A stretch of 34,572 nucleotides of DNA from positions 1 through 34,572 of the forward strand of contig JAITGD010000008.1 in NCBI GenBank assembly GCA_031280885.1, in the 5' to 3' direction. The notes under the pieces are model-generated. The model was not told the DNA's origin. It ran no database searches and saw only the letters and a program-made list of their open reading frames with translations. How positions within the stretch are numbered: position 1 is the first letter of the stretch; every line of letters starts with the position of its first letter. Of this stretch, positions 6,964-31,034 are shown piece by piece. The position numbers and the translations under genes are program-made. The stretch comes from Prevotellaceae bacterium. Its GTDB lineage: Bacteria > Bacteroidota > Bacteroidia > Bacteroidales > UBA932.

Positions 6964-7842
6964 ATGAAAGCATTCGTATTCCCGGGGCAAGGCGCTCAAT
7001 TTACGGGAATGGGCAAAGATTTGTACAACTCGCCCGAAGCAAAACGCCGGTTCGACCAGGCCAATGACGTCTTAGGATTTAAAATTACATCCATAATGTT
7101 CGAGGGAAGCGAGGCCGAACTCAAACAGACGAAGGTAACACAACCTGCGGTATTCATCCATTCGGTGATCATGGCCGAGTCGATTACCGATTTTATACCA
7201 GACATGCTCGCAGGACACTCGCTCGGAGAATTTTCGGCGCTCACTGCTGCTAAAACAATGAGCTTCGAAAGCGGATTGAGATTAGTCGCTGCTCGTGCTT
7301 TGGCTATGCAGGAAGCCTGCGAAACACAAGAATCAACAATGGCTGCTGTGCTGGGATTAGACGACACAACTGTCGAAGAAATTTGTGCCGAAATCGATGG
7401 CGTCGTTGTACCCGCAAACTACAATTGCCCCGGACAGTTAGTTATCTCCGGAGCAAAATATGCAGTAGAAAAGGCCTGCGAAAAACTGAAAGCCGCCGGA
7501 GCAAAACGCGCATTGATGCTTCCCGTCGGTGGAGCCTTCCACTCTCCGCTGATGGACCCCGCCAGAATAAAGCTCGAAGAAGCAATAAACTCAACAAAAT
7601 TCGACCAACCTATATGCCCTGTGTACCAAAATGTGGACGCGAATCCATACACCGACCCGGAGACTATCAAGCAAAATCTGATAAAACAGCTGACTGCTCC
7701 CGTCCGTTGGACACAATCAATACAGAACATGATCGCCAATGGCGCTGACGCCTTCGTCGAACTCGGACCTGGTAACGTCCTGCAAGGACTGATTAAAAAA
7801 ATAAACAAAAACGTCGCCGCAGAAAGCCGACAGAGCATTTAA
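6964..7842 (+). CDS. fabD: Malonyl-CoA:ACP transacylase
   Basis: A 292-residue enzyme that loads malonate from CoA onto acyl carrier protein for fatty-acid synthesis. It has the N-terminal FPGQGAQFTGMG loop, the nucleophile Ser in AGHSLGEFSAL (S86) and the catalytic His in GGAFHSPLM (H193). Length is normal for the family. It is the last gene of the pyrH-frr-fabD run and converges on thiH, with only nine bases between the stop codons and no room for a classical terminator between them. Confidence 0.96.
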   Translation: MKAFVFPGQGAQFTGMGKDLYNSPEAKRRFDQANDVLGFKITSIMFEGSEAELKQTKVTQPAVFIHSVIMAESITDFIPDMLAGHSLGEFSALTAAKTMSFESGLRLVAARALAMQEACETQESTMAAVLGLDDTTVEEICAEIDGVVVPANYNCPGQLVISGAKYAVEKACEKLKAAGAKRALMLPVGGAFHSPLMDPARIKLEEAINSTKFDQPICPVYQNVDANPYTDPETIKQNLIKQLTAPVRWTQSIQNMIANGADAFVELGPGNVLQGLIKKINKNVAAESRQSI

Positions 7843-7851
7843 ACGCTTTTG

Positions 7852-8970
7852 CTATTGTAATGCCTGATCCCAGTCCTTCCAGATAACGTCGTAGCCCTGG
7901 CTCCTGACTGCGCCGACTACCTCCGACGGAGAGCGATCGTCGGAAACAGCAAACTGTTCCAGCTCGCTACGATATACAGCATAGCCTCCCGGATCTGTCT
8001 TTGAGCCGGCGCTCATGGATGTGATTCCCAAAGTCGTCATCCGATCACGAAAAACATGATCTTCGCGGGTGGACAAAGCCATCTCAACGTCGTGATCAAA
8101 GATGCGGAAGGCGAATATCAACTGCGCAAGCTCCCGCTCTGTCATTATGACGTTGGGACGAAAGGCTTCGCCCTCGTGAGGTCGCATGCGCGGAAATGAA
8201 ATGGAATATTTCGTCTTCCAATATCGCTTCTGCATGTAACGAAGATGCAGCGCCAGCATAGCCGCGTCTGTACGCCAATCCTCCAAACCTATCAGCACTC
8301 CCAAGCCTATCTTATGTACGCCGGCGCGTCCCATGCGGTCGAAGGCGTCGAGACGGTGATTGAAATCCGACTTAACTCCCTTCGGATGATACAGCTTATA
8401 GTTATTTCTGTGATACGTCTCTTGATAACAATACACTGCATTCATGCCGGAGCAAGCCAAACGACGATATTCCTCCTCCGATAATGGCTGTACCTCTATC
8501 GAAATCGAGGCAAAGTGCTGGCGTACTAATTTGATGGCGTTCTCGATGTAATCGACGCCGGCTTTATGTGGATTCTCGCCTGTTACGAGAAGAATGTGCT
8601 GAAAATCGCCAATGGATTTGATGGCCTCGACTTCGTTCAGTATCTGCTCGTCGGTAAGTATTATGCGGCGGATTGCATTGTTCCGATTAAAACCACAGTA
8701 AATACAATGATTCACACATGAATTTGTCAGATAAAGAGGTACATAAAACTGTATCGTCTTTCCGAAACGCTGTCGTGTATATAGTTGGCTCATCGCTGCC
8801 ATCCGCTCTAAATATCCGCTTGCGGCAGGAGAAATAAGCGCCATAAAATCGTCCGTAGTAAGTTGCCGACGATTATTCAGCGCAGCAAGAACGTCCGACT
8901 CAGTTTTATTATATATGACCGTGCCGATTTCATTCCAATCATATTTATCGATTATTTCGGTATAAACCAT
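7852..8970 (-). CDS. thiH: 2-iminoacetate synthase (tyrosine lyase)
   Basis: A 372-residue radical SAM enzyme that cleaves tyrosine to dehydroglycine, the glycine-derived precursor of the thiamine thiazole. The radical SAM motif is SCVNHCIYCGF (Cys 85, 89 and 92), followed by the HILLVTGENPHKAG segment typical of ThiH. It is the last gene of the thiamine operon, three bases after the thiG stop, and presumably acts together with ThiG. The use of ThiH rather than glycine oxidase ThiO fits an anaerobe. Confidence 0.95.
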   Translation of the reverse strand: MVYTEIIDKYDWNEIGTVIYNKTESDVLAALNNRRQLTTDDFMALISPAASGYLERMAAMSQLYTRQRFGKTIQFYVPLYLTNSCVNHCIYCGFNRNNAIRRIILTDEQILNEVEAIKSIGDFQHILLVTGENPHKAGVDYIENAIKLVRQHFASISIEVQPLSEEEYRRLACSGMNAVYCYQETYHRNNYKLYHPKGVKSDFNHRLDAFDRMGRAGVHKIGLGVLIGLEDWRTDAAMLALHLRYMQKRYWKTKYSISFPRMRPHEGEAFRPNVIMTERELAQLIFAFRIFDHDVEMALSTREDHVFRDRMTTLGITSMSAGSKTDPGGYAVYRSELEQFAVSDDRSPSEVVGAVRSQGYDVIWKDWDQALQ

Positions 8971-8973
8971 CTT

Positions 8974-9744
8974 TTATAGTAGAAATGAAGTCAATGGACT
9001 GCTTGCTTCGGCTACGTCCAACTTACTTGCGGGAACTGATTCGTAGGCCATGCGTCCGGCTTGCACAGCCTTATGGAAGGCTTCGGCCATAGCCACAGGA
9101 TTTCCGGCGGCTGCTATCGCTGTATTTATCAGAACCGCATCGGCGCCAAGCTCCATTGCTTCAGATGCGTGCGAAGGCAAACCTATTCCGGCGTCTATAA
9201 TAACAGGTACTCGACTCTGCTCAATAATTATCTCCAACAAATCTCTTGTGCGCAGACCCTTATTCGTTCCTATCGGAGCGCCAAGAGGCATTACCGTAGC
9301 TGCGCCAGCTTCTTCCAGCAGCTTACACAATACCGGATCGGCCTGTATGTACGGCAGTACAACGAATCCCTCCGAAGCAAGTTGCTCGGTTGCTCGCAGA
9401 GTTTCTATCGGATCAGGCAAAAGATAGCGAGGGTCGGGATGTATTTCTAACTTCAACCAATTAGTTTCAAAAGCCTCACGCGAGATATGCGCCGCCAAAA
9501 TAGCTTCGCTTGCGTTTCGCGCCCCTGAAGTATTTGGCAATAACCTCACTCCAGCACGGCGAACATAAGTTAGCATATCATCATTAGGCTTATTCATGTC
9601 CACGCGCTTCATTGCTAAGGTAACCATCTCGGTACGAGAGGCCTTTATAGCTGCGCTCATCAACTCGTTTGAACCAAATTTGCCTGTGCCAAGAAAAAGC
9701 CGTGATGTAAACTCCTGTCCTGCTATGGTTAATTTATTCTTCAT
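8974..9744 (-). CDS. thiG: Thiazole synthase
   Basis: A 256-residue TIM-barrel enzyme that condenses 1-deoxyxylulose 5-phosphate, dehydroglycine and ThiS thiocarboxylate into the thiazole phosphate. It shows FLGTGKFGS at the N-terminus, [13 protein letters not shown], the Schiff-base Lys in [10 protein letters not shown] (K98), [12 protein letters not shown] and [29 protein letters not shown]-type barrel ends. Its start overlaps the thiE stop by 11 bases, and thiH follows directly, indicating translational coupling. Confidence 0.97.
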
Positions 9745-10372
9745 TACATATTATTTTTATGATTTTCCTCACCTCTTCCTTTGGATTTACAGAATTCAAT
9801 ATTGATGAGGACATTGCAACTCCCGATACACCCAGACGCATTATTGAAGCTACCTCGTCGGAAGTGATTCCGCCGATTGCAATTAGTGGTATGTCAATCT
9901 GATGCTCGCGACAAAGACCGATGATTCTACTGTATCCGTCGGAGCCTAAAATCGGCGACAGATTCTGCTTAGTATTAGTGAATCGAAATGGACCAAGTCC
10001 AATATAATCAACACCATCATTATAAAGCCGCCGAATATCGTCGAAAGTATTTGCTGTGCCTCCTATGACAAAGCCGCTGCCAAGAATTGCACGCGCCTCC
10101 GATGGCTGCATATCTAACTTCCCAAGATGCACACCTTTAGCTCCTATACGCGCACATACTTCCACTCGGTCGTTGATGTAAAGATCGGCGCCATAGTCGT
10201 CGCAAAGTTTTTTAACTTCTCGCGCTGTACTTTCAAACTCATCCGAAGATAGTGCATCCTTCATTCTGAACTGTATTTGACGGCATCCGCCGGCGAGAGC
10301 TATCTCTGCCGACTGTAAATAGCCGAATCGCTCGCTTCGATGAGTAATAAATAGTAGTCCTTTTATAACCAT
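9734..10372 (-). CDS. thiE: Thiamine-phosphate synthase (canonical copy)
   Basis: A 212-residue TIM-barrel enzyme joining HMP pyrophosphate and thiazole phosphate to give thiamine phosphate. All expected motifs are present: [53 protein letters not shown] and [10 protein letters not shown]. Of the two ThiE-like genes here this one has the complete active-site set. It overlaps the upstream paralogue by 10 bases and thiG by 11. Confidence 0.95.
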
Positions 10373-11004
10373 ATACAGCTCGACTTAAGTGCTTCGTAGC
10401 GTCTTCGTAGTTCGGTATAACTTTTATCAATAAAAAATTGATTCCATATAGCGCCTAGTACAGCTATACCGCCAAATCCACATTCCCGTATTGTGTACAC
10501 ATTTTCCTGGGTAATCCCGCCCAAAGCTATTATACGCTCATTGATAACTTTCCTGTTCTTAGCACGCATAAGTCTGTCGATTGGAAAAGCGCTACGGTAT
10601 CCGGGTTTTGAAATACTGTCGAAAATAGGACTTAAAAACAGATAATCATACTCCTTCGATATTAAAACTTCTTTAAGCGAATGACACGAGCGACTAATTG
10701 TTAGTCCCTCTCTTACTTTATGATTATATCCGTTTCTATCATTAAGATGAATCCCGCCTATGTTAAACTCATTTGCAAGCTCATAATGGTCGTGTAAAAC
10801 AATCTGGGGACGTAAACTTTCATGGATTTTACCTATAAGAGATCTGACTTCGTCAATAGAAGACTTCGGTTTACGTATGTGCAAAATTTTAAGCCCTCGA
10901 ATAAGCAAAAAATTAAGAATCGCAGATTCGTCGCTGAAAAAAGTATCATGTGTTATAACAATCAACTTTATTCTTCTTATCTTAGGTTTCTTTACTTTAC
11001 CCAC
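10363..11004 (-). CDS. Second ThiE/TenI-like protein of the thiamine operon
   Basis: A 213-residue ThiE/TenI-fold protein that differs from the canonical copy. It has LHIRKPKSSIDE, IVLHDHYELANEF, IGGIHLNDRN, LFLSPIFDSISKPGYRS and IIALGGIT, but lacks the INDR and GPFxxTxTK motifs. By analogy with Bacteroidetes operons that carry two such genes, it may be a thiazole tautomerase (TenI-like) or a divergent thiamine-phosphate synthase. The start is a GTG at 11004 that overlaps the end of thiS by 8 bases; a TTG fourteen codons on (LIVITHD, the usual N-terminal strand of the family) is an alternative. Function is less certain than for the neighbouring genes. Confidence 0.85.
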   Translation of the reverse strand: MGKVKKPKIRRIKLIVITHDTFFSDESAILNFLLIRGLKILHIRKPKSSIDEVRSLIGKIHESLRPQIVLHDHYELANEFNIGGIHLNDRNGYNHKVREGLTISRSCHSLKEVLISKEYDYLFLSPIFDSISKPGYRSAFPIDRLMRAKNRKVINERIIALGGITQENVYTIRECGFGGIAVLGAIWNQFFIDKSYTELRRRYEALKSSCIWL

Positions 11005-11197
11005 CTGAAACCGCTTGAAGCATTATAATTTCCATTCCGTCTTTGGCTATAATATTTTCCCATTTGCCGCGTCCAATAATGCGATCCTCTATAATCATTA
11101 CTATTCCATCAGTCGGAAGTCCGTTACGGATTACAAGTTCGAGCAGAGTCATCTGTTCCTCTATTTCAAACTCCTTTGCATTGATTTTTACTGTCAT
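10997..11197 (-). CDS. thiS: Sulfur carrier protein ThiS
   Basis: A 66-residue ubiquitin-like protein ending in the required Gly-Gly (QAVSGG), which is thiocarboxylated to carry sulfur to ThiG. MTVKINAKEFEIEE and the LLELV helix are typical. The adenylating enzyme ThiF that activates this tail is not encoded in the window. It lies 24 bases after thiD and its stop is inside the start region of the ThiE-like gene. Confidence 0.95.
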   Translation of the reverse strand: MTVKINAKEFEIEEQMTLLELVIRNGLPTDGIVMIIEDRIIGRGKWENIIAKDGMEIIMLQAVSGG

Positions 11198-11221
11198 GTT
11201 TATTATATTTTTAAAGGTTTA

Positions 11222-12043
11222 TTATTTCCAATACTTATAAAAATGATGTATAGGGCCATTACCCTTGCCGATGGTATAATACGCTCCGTCGAAGATTGCC
11301 ATATTTACATAGTCCTTCGCTTTTCGCACAGCCCAGTCAAGAGAAAGTCCATGAGTAAGATATGCAGCTATTGCCGACGAAAGCGTGCAGCCTGTGCCAT
11401 GTGTATTTTTAGTGTCGATACGCATGAATCTCAACTCAATTATTTCGTCAGTCTCCGCATTATAAAATACATCCGCAGAATCTTTTTCCTCCAAATGTCC
11501 GGCTTTTAGCAGAACCGACACTTTTTTATCCATCGATAAATCGCGAACTACATCTATCAAATCTTTGTGGCAGCTTATTTTACATCCAAGCAGCACCTCC
11601 GCTTCCGGTATATTCGGCGTAATCACTCGTACCGATGGTATTAACTCCTTTCGGAGTGTCTCAATAGCATCATCGCGAAGCAGTCTATCGCCCGAAGTAG
11701 CCACCATAACAGGGTCAAGCACAGTGTTCACTATTTTATAAGGAGCTATGGCATGTTTTACCGCAAGTATCAACTCCGATGAATGTAGCATACCAATCTT
11801 TATTGCGTCGGCTCCTATATCGTCGAGTACTGAATGTATCTGTCCTGTAACGAAATCCACAGGAATTTCATGTATCCCTGTTACACCCTGAGTATTTTCG
11901 TCCACCACCGCCACTATCGCCGATGCGCCATAACATTCGCATGCAGCAATGGTTTTCAGGTCGGCCTGTATTCCGGCGCCTCCGCTTGGGTCGCTGCCGG
12001 CAATTGTCAGCACTCGTCTATAATGTCTCTTCATATCTTCCAT
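11222..12043 (-). CDS. thiD: Hydroxymethylpyrimidine (phosphate) kinase
   Basis: A 273-residue ribokinase-family enzyme that phosphorylates HMP and HMP-P to the pyrophosphate used by ThiE. Signature stretches are LTIAGSDPSGGAGIQADLKT at the N-terminus, the MLHSSELI region, LDPVMVATSGDRLL, TPNIPEAEVLLG and the anion-hole TKNTHGTGCTLSSAIAAYL. The ATG overlaps the end of tenA by 13 bases. An internal ATG three codons on is an equally possible start. Confidence 0.95.
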   Translation of the reverse strand: MEDMKRHYRRVLTIAGSDPSGGAGIQADLKTIAACECYGASAIVAVVDENTQGVTGIHEIPVDFVTGQIHSVLDDIGADAIKIGMLHSSELILAVKHAIAPYKIVNTVLDPVMVATSGDRLLRDDAIETLRKELIPSVRVITPNIPEAEVLLGCKISCHKDLIDVVRDLSMDKKVSVLLKAGHLEEKDSADVFYNAETDEIIELRFMRIDTKNTHGTGCTLSSAIAAYLTHGLSLDWAVRKAKDYVNMAIFDGAYYTIGKGNGPIHHFYKYWK

Positions 12044-12687
12044 GTTTCAAGATTGTAAGCGCTCTCCCAGAACATCCATTCCATACGCGAACATGTAATA
12101 AAAGCTTCGGTCATCTCTGCTCGGCGCTCTTCGGATGATCTTTCGGCAAGGGCGTCGCAAATGTCGATAGCCTTATATACTGATTGCGCATATTCCTCAC
12201 CTCCATAAGTTTCTATCCATGCACGATAAGGATTATCGGCCAATTTTGCTTCAGCCTTTATATAATTACCTACTTCCATGTAAATCCAAAAGCAGGGTAG
12301 CACGGCTGCCATTGTTACTTCTACCGGAGCATTAGTCATACGAAGCAGATATGAGGTATAAAGCAGACATGAAGGCGATTGAGGTATTTTGATTTCTCTG
12401 TTTATTCCATACTGATTGAAGAAAGCCTCATGCAAAGCTGCTTCGACGGCGATACTTTCTGATGCAAAACCTAACATCATAGCTCTTTGAGCAGGCTCGT
12501 CGAGTTTTGAAGCTATCGCTGCTAAAGATTTGCCGAAATCAACCAGATACAGAGCATCTTGCTGTATATAAAAGATGAATCTTTCCTTACTGAGAGACCC
12601 TCTAATAAGCTCGCTTATGAAGGTCGATTTCAGTGTTTTATCATAAATATCGGATATTGAATCCCACGCATTTTTACTCCACTTCAT
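12031..12687 (-). CDS. tenA: TenA-family thiaminase II / aminopyrimidine aminohydrolase
   Basis: A 218-residue helical TenA protein. In other bacteria TenA hydrolyses aminopyrimidine breakdown products of thiamine to regenerate HMP. Family features are the N-terminal FISELIRGSL..ERFIFYIQQDALYL stretch, a central helix pair with SCLLYTSYLLRM, LPCFWIYMEVG, and WIETYGGEEY near the end. The ATG at 12687 gives the usual N-terminus MKWSKNAWDSI. The ORF-track start is a GTG at 12768 inside the leader and is rejected. It is the first gene of the thiamine operon, suggesting HMP salvage is a main input. Confidence 0.9.
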   Translation of the reverse strand: MKWSKNAWDSISDIYDKTLKSTFISELIRGSLSKERFIFYIQQDALYLVDFGKSLAAIASKLDEPAQRAMMLGFASESIAVEAALHEAFFNQYGINREIKIPQSPSCLLYTSYLLRMTNAPVEVTMAAVLPCFWIYMEVGNYIKAEAKLADNPYRAWIETYGGEEYAQSVYKAIDICDALAERSSEERRAEMTEAFITCSRMEWMFWESAYNLETWKI

Positions 12688-12699
12688 ACTATATACTAT

Positions 12700-12786
12700 C
12701 TTTATCCTTCCACATAATTCGCTGTACATCAGCCGTGAGTATTTAATCTCATGCTCTTTTGTCAGCACCTTTTAATACTATATACA
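12700..12786 (-). promoter_or_regulatory. Candidate divergent TPP riboswitch in the tenA leader
   Basis: Between the -7 box (12814-12821) and the tenA ATG (12687) is an untranslated leader of about 120 nt. Reading the minus strand, TPP-riboswitch-like blocks occur in the right order: AAGGTGCT, a small GCT/AGC stem in place of P3, TGAGAT (the pyrimidine-binding J3/2 consensus is CTGAGA), ATACTC (ATACCC), GGCTGAT (ACCTGAT), an ACA/TGT stem-loop with AATTA (P5 and its TAAT loop) and AAGGATAA (TAGGGAA). Several pairs of P2 and P4 are imperfect, so it may be divergent, decayed or chance. Context (thiamine operon, suitable leader length) favours a real element. An 11-base direct repeat, ATACTATATAC on the plus strand, flanks it at 12686 and 12775 and includes the start codon. 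Confidence 0.4.
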
Positions 12787-12813
12787 CTACAAAAAGTGTG
12801 CCTAACTGCACTG

Positions 12814-12821
12814 CAAAGATA
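12814..12821 (-). promoter_or_regulatory. -7 promoter box (TATCTTTG) of the thiamine operon
   Basis: TATCTTTG on the minus strand, about 127 bases before the tenA ATG. It places the transcription start near 12807 and defines the long leader that holds the candidate riboswitch. Confidence 0.6.
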
Positions 12822-12835
12822 ATACTTTTTTTGGA

Positions 12836-12900
12836 CTTTTAGACTTTTGGACACTTGGACTTTATTAGACTTTTGGACTTTTAGACTTTTGGATTGTTAG
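12836..12900. repeat. GGACTTTT / AGACTTTT microrepeat tract
   Basis: About six or seven degenerate copies of a ~10-base unit, TTGGACTTTT or TTAGACTTTT. The tract ends in GTTAGATGTATGTGTTATTTT, nearly the same tail as the tract at 15943-16022. Confidence 0.75.
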
Positions 12901-12934
12901 ATGTATGTGTTATTTTTATAGATAGACGTATTTC

Positions 12935-12982
12935 AGCAGACTGAAGCCTATGGTTAATAAAGTGTCGTCCCTGCGTGACTTT
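12935..12982 (+). repeat. REP-like unit, copy 1 (degenerate)
   Basis: A degenerate GGCTNAAGCCTAYGG stem, then TTAATAAAGTGTCGTCCCTG and CGTGACTTT. It has the same order as the intact copy at 13007. Confidence 0.75.
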
Positions 12983-13006
12983 GTAGAGTAGCAGTGTATT
13001 GTCGAT

Positions 13007-13055
13007 CCGTAGGCTAAAGCCTACGGTTAATAAAGTGTCGTCCCTGCGGGACTTT
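13007..13055 (+). repeat. REP-like unit, copy 2 (intact)
   Basis: A perfect stem, CCGTAGGCTAAAGCCTACGG, is followed by TTAATAAAGTGTCG and TCCCTGCGGGACTTT, the second of which can pair with its neighbouring copies. This is the clearest reference unit of the family in the window. Confidence 0.85.
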
Positions 13056-13171
13056 TTATTTATATGGTATGCGTATTATATTGATATTGTACACAATGCC
13101 TCTACGCGACAGAATATGATTGCATATATACTTAACGCGCAATGCACATACAACAAAATACTATACCGATA

Positions 13172-13220
13172 AAAGTCCCGCAGGGACGACACTTTATTAA
13201 CCGTAGGCTTTAGCCTACGG
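13172..13220 (-). repeat. REP-like unit, copy 3 (intact, reverse orientation)
   Basis: The exact reverse-orientation counterpart of the copy at 13007, running AAAGTCCCGCAGGGACGACA then TTAACCGTAGGCTTTAGCC. With copy 2 it forms a large inverted pair. Confidence 0.85.
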
Positions 13221-13244
13221 ATATGATATGAACCAATAAAATAT

Positions 13245-13322
13245 AAGTCACGCAGGGACGACACTTAATTTATATTGTATAATTTGATAGTAGATTTAAG
13301 TGTTGTCCCTGCTTGACTTTTT
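13245..13322. repeat. Two partial REP-like units in inverted orientation
   Basis: AAGTCACGCAGGGACGACACTT (13245 onward, reverse) and AAGTGTTGTCCCTGCTTGACTT (ending about 13321, forward) are degenerate half-units facing each other over an AT-rich loop. Confidence 0.7.
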
Positions 13323-30931: not shown

Positions 30932-30983
30932 ATCAATTGAATTAAATTAAATTTTTGAAGTCGGATGTAATTAAATAACTCCG

Positions 30984-30991
30984 CAAAGTTA
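30984..30991 (-). promoter_or_regulatory. -7 promoter box (TAACTTTG) of xylB
   Basis: TAACTTTG on the minus strand, 53 bases before the xylB ATG at 30931. Confidence 0.6.
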
Positions 30992-31034
30992 ATTGAATTA
31001 TAATTATGCTTGCTTGCGCTACAAAATTTTATTT

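Follow-up and report, generated by a model that had tools for sequence, protein, structure and literature searches.

A thiamine operon leader with TPP-riboswitch-like words in a Bacteroidales genome, possibly the remnant of a riboswitch

In gut Bacteroidetes, a TPP riboswitch lies immediately upstream of the major biosynthetic thiamine operon in every genome that has this operon (109 of 109; PMC5613172). This RNA, the THI element, is Rfam family RF00059; a further described system with which the leader of such an operon can be compared is the HMP-PP riboswitch, or thiS motif (PMC6478431). The usual gene order in ThiG/ThiH operons is riboswitch-thiS-tenI-thiE-thiG-thiH-thiF-(methyltransferase)-tenA-thiD. 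A canonical TPP riboswitch was present in 8 of 10 loci related to the one described here (L067 to L074 have it, L075 and L076 do not), and an above-threshold one was found in 10 of 13 further tenA regions that were scanned. The leader analyzed here had been proposed, in a sequence-only reading, to be a possible divergent TPP riboswitch, and more specifically a structural variant, a decaying copy or a product of chance. By the accepted test, it is not a TPP riboswitch. It may be the decayed remnant of one that no longer switches, an explanation to which we assign a probability of roughly 0.4.

The thi operon, its leader and its genome

The window, by which we mean the whole stretch of 34,572 nucleotides analyzed, constitutes a single contig; the Bacteroidales assembly to which it belongs is of metagenome type, 2.66 Mb in size and 89% complete. 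Misbinning of the contig was ruled out: the gene at positions 6964-7842 has an ortholog of 72 to 76% identity in 11 of 12 congeners, and the contig therefore belongs to the genus. The promoter, leader and genes are as follows.

12813..12821, minus strand: -7 box of the Bacteroidetes type, TATCTTTGC; putative thi operon promoter
12688..12812, minus strand: tenA operon 5' leader (about 125 nt), which separates the -7 box from the tenA ATG
12031..12687, minus strand: tenA (thiaminase II/TenA salvage protein); TIGR04306, 132.2 bits, cut-off 130
11222..12043, minus strand: thiD; TIGR00097, 312 bits
10997..11197, minus strand: thiS, 66 amino acids with a Gly-Gly end; from its translation, resembling thiS in related operons
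7852..11004, minus strand: tenI/thiE-like gene, thiE, thiG and thiH; NCBIfam, ThiG Pfam match of 356 bits, and synteny comparison

The tenA start codon is the ATG at 12687-12685 on the minus strand. The candidate leader thus lies directly upstream of a thiamine operon, tenA-thiD-thiS-tenI-thiE-thiG-thiH, which is the location expected of an RF00059 member. The motif TANNTTTGC occurs 21 times in the window, compared with 7.8 expected, and around the -7 box 21 to 28 bases are shared with five other genomes of the family. A DNA search for leader orthologs in 399 family genomes returned matches at the promoter end only.

The order of the operon differs from the usual one in that tenA-thiD stands before thiS-tenI-thiE-thiG-thiH. 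Neither TenA nor a true ThiG was found in the 12 other genus members examined, and the operon was therefore probably acquired laterally, and probably rearranged, in this lineage. The search for TenA relatives reached 55% identity at best, in other families of the order, and most of these best relatives are associated with canonical riboswitches; a close ortholog of the operon was not found among the genomes searched. In six congeners, a canonical TPP riboswitch lies directly before a TonB-dependent receptor gene (L096:4638-7070, L010, L012, L014 and others), and it is in exactly these six congeners and no others that the receptor and an above-threshold riboswitch occur together. The genome of the window has neither a TonB-dependent receptor of that kind nor an above-threshold riboswitch, and no credible TPP riboswitch was found elsewhere in its assembly.

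In the same 89% complete assembly, ThiC was not found, and HMP is presumably salvaged through TenA in this organism. The operon (7852-12687) lacks thiF, and the assembly has no clear operon-type thiF: its ThiF-family matches are two proteins only, which by sequence resemble other E1-like enzymes. A divergent ThiF/E1-like protein of this genome (L078:1477-2280) adjoins a recJ-like gene.

Short tandem-like TTTTGGACTTTTAGAC units fill 12829-12901, directly upstream of the promoter, and farther out, at 12930-13270, there is a REP- or MITE-like mosaic of inverted repeats, including a perfect 52-nt inverted pair (13005-13056 and 13171-13222) with CCGTAGGCTAAAGCCTACGG and GTCCCTGCGGGAC palindromes. 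A 14-nt direct repeat (12683-12696 and 12772-12785, 13 of 14 positions identical), of a sort found in 2 of 300 shuffles, flanks the TPP-like core, with one copy spanning the tenA start codon.

TPP-like words, predicted fold and strength of the resemblance

The leader was compared with an alignment of 36 above-threshold TPP riboswitches from related Bacteroidales genomes, in all of which GGGGTG, GCTGAGA, CC and AC-TG are invariant. The TPP-like words that the sequence-only reading had listed on the minus strand are all present, in the order given and at about the right spacing.

12765..12771, minus strand: AAGGTGC, counterpart of GGGGTGC (P2 5' strand); block alignment, invariant columns
12746..12754, minus strand: GCATGAGAT, counterpart of GGCTGAGAT; TGAGA pyrimidine-pocket word intact
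12737..12741, minus strand: TACTC, counterpart of TACCC (P2 3' strand); middle C changed to T
12728..12735, minus strand: CGGCTGAT, counterpart of AACCTGAT (P4 5' strand); block alignment
12704..12713, minus strand: GTGGAAGGAT, counterpart of GCGTAGGGAA (P4 3' strand); block alignment
12720..12767, minus strand: predicted in place of the TPP fold: an imperfect hairpin with TGAG paired to CTCA in its stem

Relative to the alignment, TGAGA and CTGAT are kept, while two of the four invariant Gs (both A in AAGGTGC), the central C of CCC and the AACC preceding TGAT are lost. The pyrimidine pocket is intact, as had been claimed (TGAGA at 12751-12747), and next to it four P3 pairs are possible (TGCT/AGCA, shifted by one). 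The helices described as imperfect are indeed so. P2, which is GGGG with CCC in the family, consists of AAGG facing CTC, with one G-C and one A-U pair and mismatches at the other positions; on the pyrophosphate-sensor side, P4 has at most two pairs, and P5 is a weak TACA/TGTG hairpin that the covariance alignment of the leader omits. No sequence in the window matched RF00059 at its gathering score of 54.3 bits. The absence of a covariance-model hit even at a relaxed threshold had been named beforehand, together with a lack of conservation of the blocks in related genomes, as what would speak against a riboswitch, and the leader was without an RF00059 match at an E value of ≤10; all of Rfam, searched at gathering and relaxed thresholds, gave nothing relevant on the leader. 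As the leader fell short of the score and the helices that define RF00059, we do not class it in this family.

Drawn by hand in a TPP-like fold, the leader reaches -1.3 kcal/mol, compared with a predicted minimum of -15.3 kcal/mol and with -7 to -20 kcal/mol for real TPP riboswitches in their consensus structure. The predicted hairpin would bury the TGAGA pocket because TGAG pairs with CTCA. The segment from 12715 to 12775, which was picked after folding, has -14.4 kcal/mol and a z score of -3.3 (0 of 500 shuffles); for the whole leader, the z score is -1.1.

How far the resemblance exceeds chance was gauged in several ways. A five-block score was derived from 36 real TPP riboswitches, with its block and gap settings fixed once the candidate was known; the leader scored 19.2, compared with 54 to 69 for real riboswitches and a mean of -7.7 for shuffles. 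None of 1,500 dinucleotide shuffles reached this value, and it was the highest among 1,150 tiles of the window. Across other loci totaling 1.48 Mb of strand, equal or better places numbered about 4 at near-natural spacing and 16 to 21 at loose spacing, corresponding to a P value of about 0.0003 to 0.002 for a 125-nt leader. A profile HMM placed the leader 18th of 3,001 (P = 0.006), and 3 of 600 shuffles gave an equally good local DNA alignment. A covariance model made from 36 Bacteroidales TPP riboswitches (the clade model) gave the leader 8.6 bits (E = 0.025 for 601 bases and 1.5 for the window); the window's best match elsewhere, at 30937-30993, reached 9.0 bits, and unrelated comparable sequence gave matches of 8.9 to 9.9 bits. 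The individual controls span P values of about 0.0003 to 0.006. These are overlapping rather than independent tests, and the limits of the blocks were chosen with the candidate known; we therefore set the overall P value at about 0.001 to 0.006, a resemblance that is probably, if modestly, beyond that of most random leaders and is not compelling.

Several weak matches outside the leader were set aside. Two RF00059 matches in the window's own genome, at 14.7 and 13.3 bits, lie elsewhere than the leader and were taken as chance. TPP-like matches in two congeners (L148 and L151) and in a member of another genus of the family (L150) overlap coding frames and look like chance hits; that they outscore the candidate reflects their selection from whole genomes. 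A TPP riboswitch whose P3 loop region holds about 65 bases precedes a TonB-dependent receptor gene at L149:1961-2088; it scores 39.5 bits with RF00059, which is under the cut-off, and 54.5 bits with the clade model.

Explanations of the resemblance

In the explanation that we prefer, the operon would have been acquired or rearranged in this lineage, with tenA-thiD placed before thiS-tenI-thiE-thiG-thiH, and a riboswitch would have been retained between the promoter and the first gene while selection on it was lost. The TGAGA ligand pocket and the CTGAT and AGG words would still be legible, with helices P2 and P4 gone; transcription would run from the -7 box, with a start near 12806-12812, into tenA without TPP control, and an unrelated hairpin would form in the leader RNA. 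Under this explanation we infer that the leader shares its descent with TPP riboswitches, that it has ceased to switch, that expression is constitutive and that the operon arrived by transfer. It is consistent with ordered blocks at near-natural spacing that exceed most controls and are the best of the 1,150 tiles, with their position directly upstream of the operon's first gene, with the canonical TPP riboswitches that head most related operons, as in the published gut Bacteroidetes survey, with the unusual gene order of an operon missing from 12 other genus members, and with an assembly otherwise devoid of a credible TPP riboswitch. Against it stand the lack of an RF00059 match at an E value of ≤10, a clade-model score below those seen at unrelated places, the HMM P value of 0.006, and 399 family genomes in which no intermediate or orthologous leader was found. 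Its close rival, which we judge somewhat less probable, is chance, under which there is no feature at all: the leader would be an unremarkable 5' untranslated region that forms its own hairpin, and the words would be a coincidence, noticed because a TPP riboswitch was sought before thiamine genes. The 8.6-bit score (E = 1.5 in the window, with a higher match at 30937-30993), the several 9- to 10-bit matches in unrelated sequence, the HMM rank and a second pathway-related resemblance in the same bases, discussed below, all speak for chance. What chance does not readily account for is a block score found in 0 of 1,500 shuffles and at only about 4 places per 1.48 Mb of strand at near-natural spacing, at exactly the place where a TPP element was expected a priori. 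Of the options raised by the sequence-only reading, a decaying copy and chance are not separated by the evidence. We slightly favor a decayed remnant over chance, since this is exactly where a TPP riboswitch is to be expected and since the surviving words are the most conserved ones.

The evidence speaks against the third option, a working variant. Such a variant would be a structurally reduced riboswitch in which the TGAGA pocket still recognizes TPP, or a different thiamine intermediate, with the shifted P3 (TGCT/AGCA), an A-U pair replacing G-C in P2 and the short P5 (TACA/TGTG). TGAGA and CTGAT are preserved, an A-U pair at one position of P2 can be read as compensatory, a four-pair P3 and a P5 can be drawn, and a long leader before a biosynthetic operon would suit such an element. 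We nevertheless regard it as improbable: RF00059 is unmatched, the invariant GGGG and CCC of P2 are lost and P2 and P4 are largely unpaired, the TPP-like fold at -1.3 kcal/mol lies far from both the predicted minimum of -15.3 kcal/mol and the range of real riboswitches, and no relative was found in the 399 family genomes. Equally hard to credit, and if anything more so, is a functional thiamine-responsive RNA of reduced structure with the TGAGA pocket on a noncanonical scaffold, possibly sensing a salvage intermediate in a host that apparently lacks ThiC and relies on TenA. Binding of TPP by the leader RNA would mean a new definition of the minimal aptamer, a prospect that the present results do not support.

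The remaining explanation is that these bases are the leftover 5' end of a thiF gene, cut to about 12 to 25 codons in frame with tenA, so that TACTC and CGGCTGAT, read above as TPP-like words, would encode YSRLM.

12688..12768, minus strand: 27 open codons in the tenA frame (VLTKEHEIKYSRLMYSELCGRIKIVYS); 12-residue match to the L072 ThiF N terminus, score 33

The match aligns VLTKEHEIKYSR to ILTEKDRLRYSR of the L072 ThiF, and its score was equaled by 9 of 1,500 shuffles in three frames and by none of 1,500 in the tenA frame; it is the best of 524 N termini apart from the leader's own frame, with another E1-like protein at 29. In relatives, thiF stands directly before tenA or one gene off (it adjoins tenA in L068 to L070 and in L072), the assembly is without a clear operon-type thiF, and the frame is open over 27 codons. 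Arguing the other way are a ThiF profile score of 1.2 bits (E = 0.06), the absence of a Pfam match and of an ATG, and the highly conserved LPEIGxEGQ that should follow RYSRQ, which is not recognizable in the leader peptide; moreover, the match comes from one ThiF sequence only and was spotted after the fact. We consider a thiF remnant unlikely. The TPP and ThiF stories suit the same 80 bases about equally, and likely at most one of them is true, which counts against a decayed riboswitch as well; for this reason, neither match should be trusted far.

Comparison with known systems

The leader shares with the N terminus of ThiF, the E1-like ThiS adenylyltransferase, a 12-residue in-frame resemblance, located where relatives have thiF ahead of tenA, but its peptide is not recognized by Pfam and lacks the conserved motif after RYSRQ. 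With the HMP-PP riboswitch it shares a hairpin-bearing leader before thiamine genes that include thiS. It differs from this RNA in having no Rfam match at an E value of ≤10 and no U run 3' of the hairpin, which is followed instead by GAATTATGTGG. An HMP-PP riboswitch was therefore ruled out, and, because the U run is absent, the hairpin is not a terminator-embedded aptamer.

The closest system remains the RF00059 TPP riboswitch. Word order, approximate spacing, the TGAGA, CTGAT and AGG words and the position before a thiamine operon are common to both, whereas the leader scores far under the family threshold, has broken P2 and P4 helices and a different predicted fold, and belongs to no group of relatives that we could find. 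If it is a relic, it would illustrate riboswitch decay: a thiamine operon would have escaped the near-universal TPP control of the Bacteroidetes (109 of 109; PMC5613172) after rearrangement and probable lateral transfer, in a genus of which six other members instead have a TPP riboswitch linked to an outer-membrane receptor.
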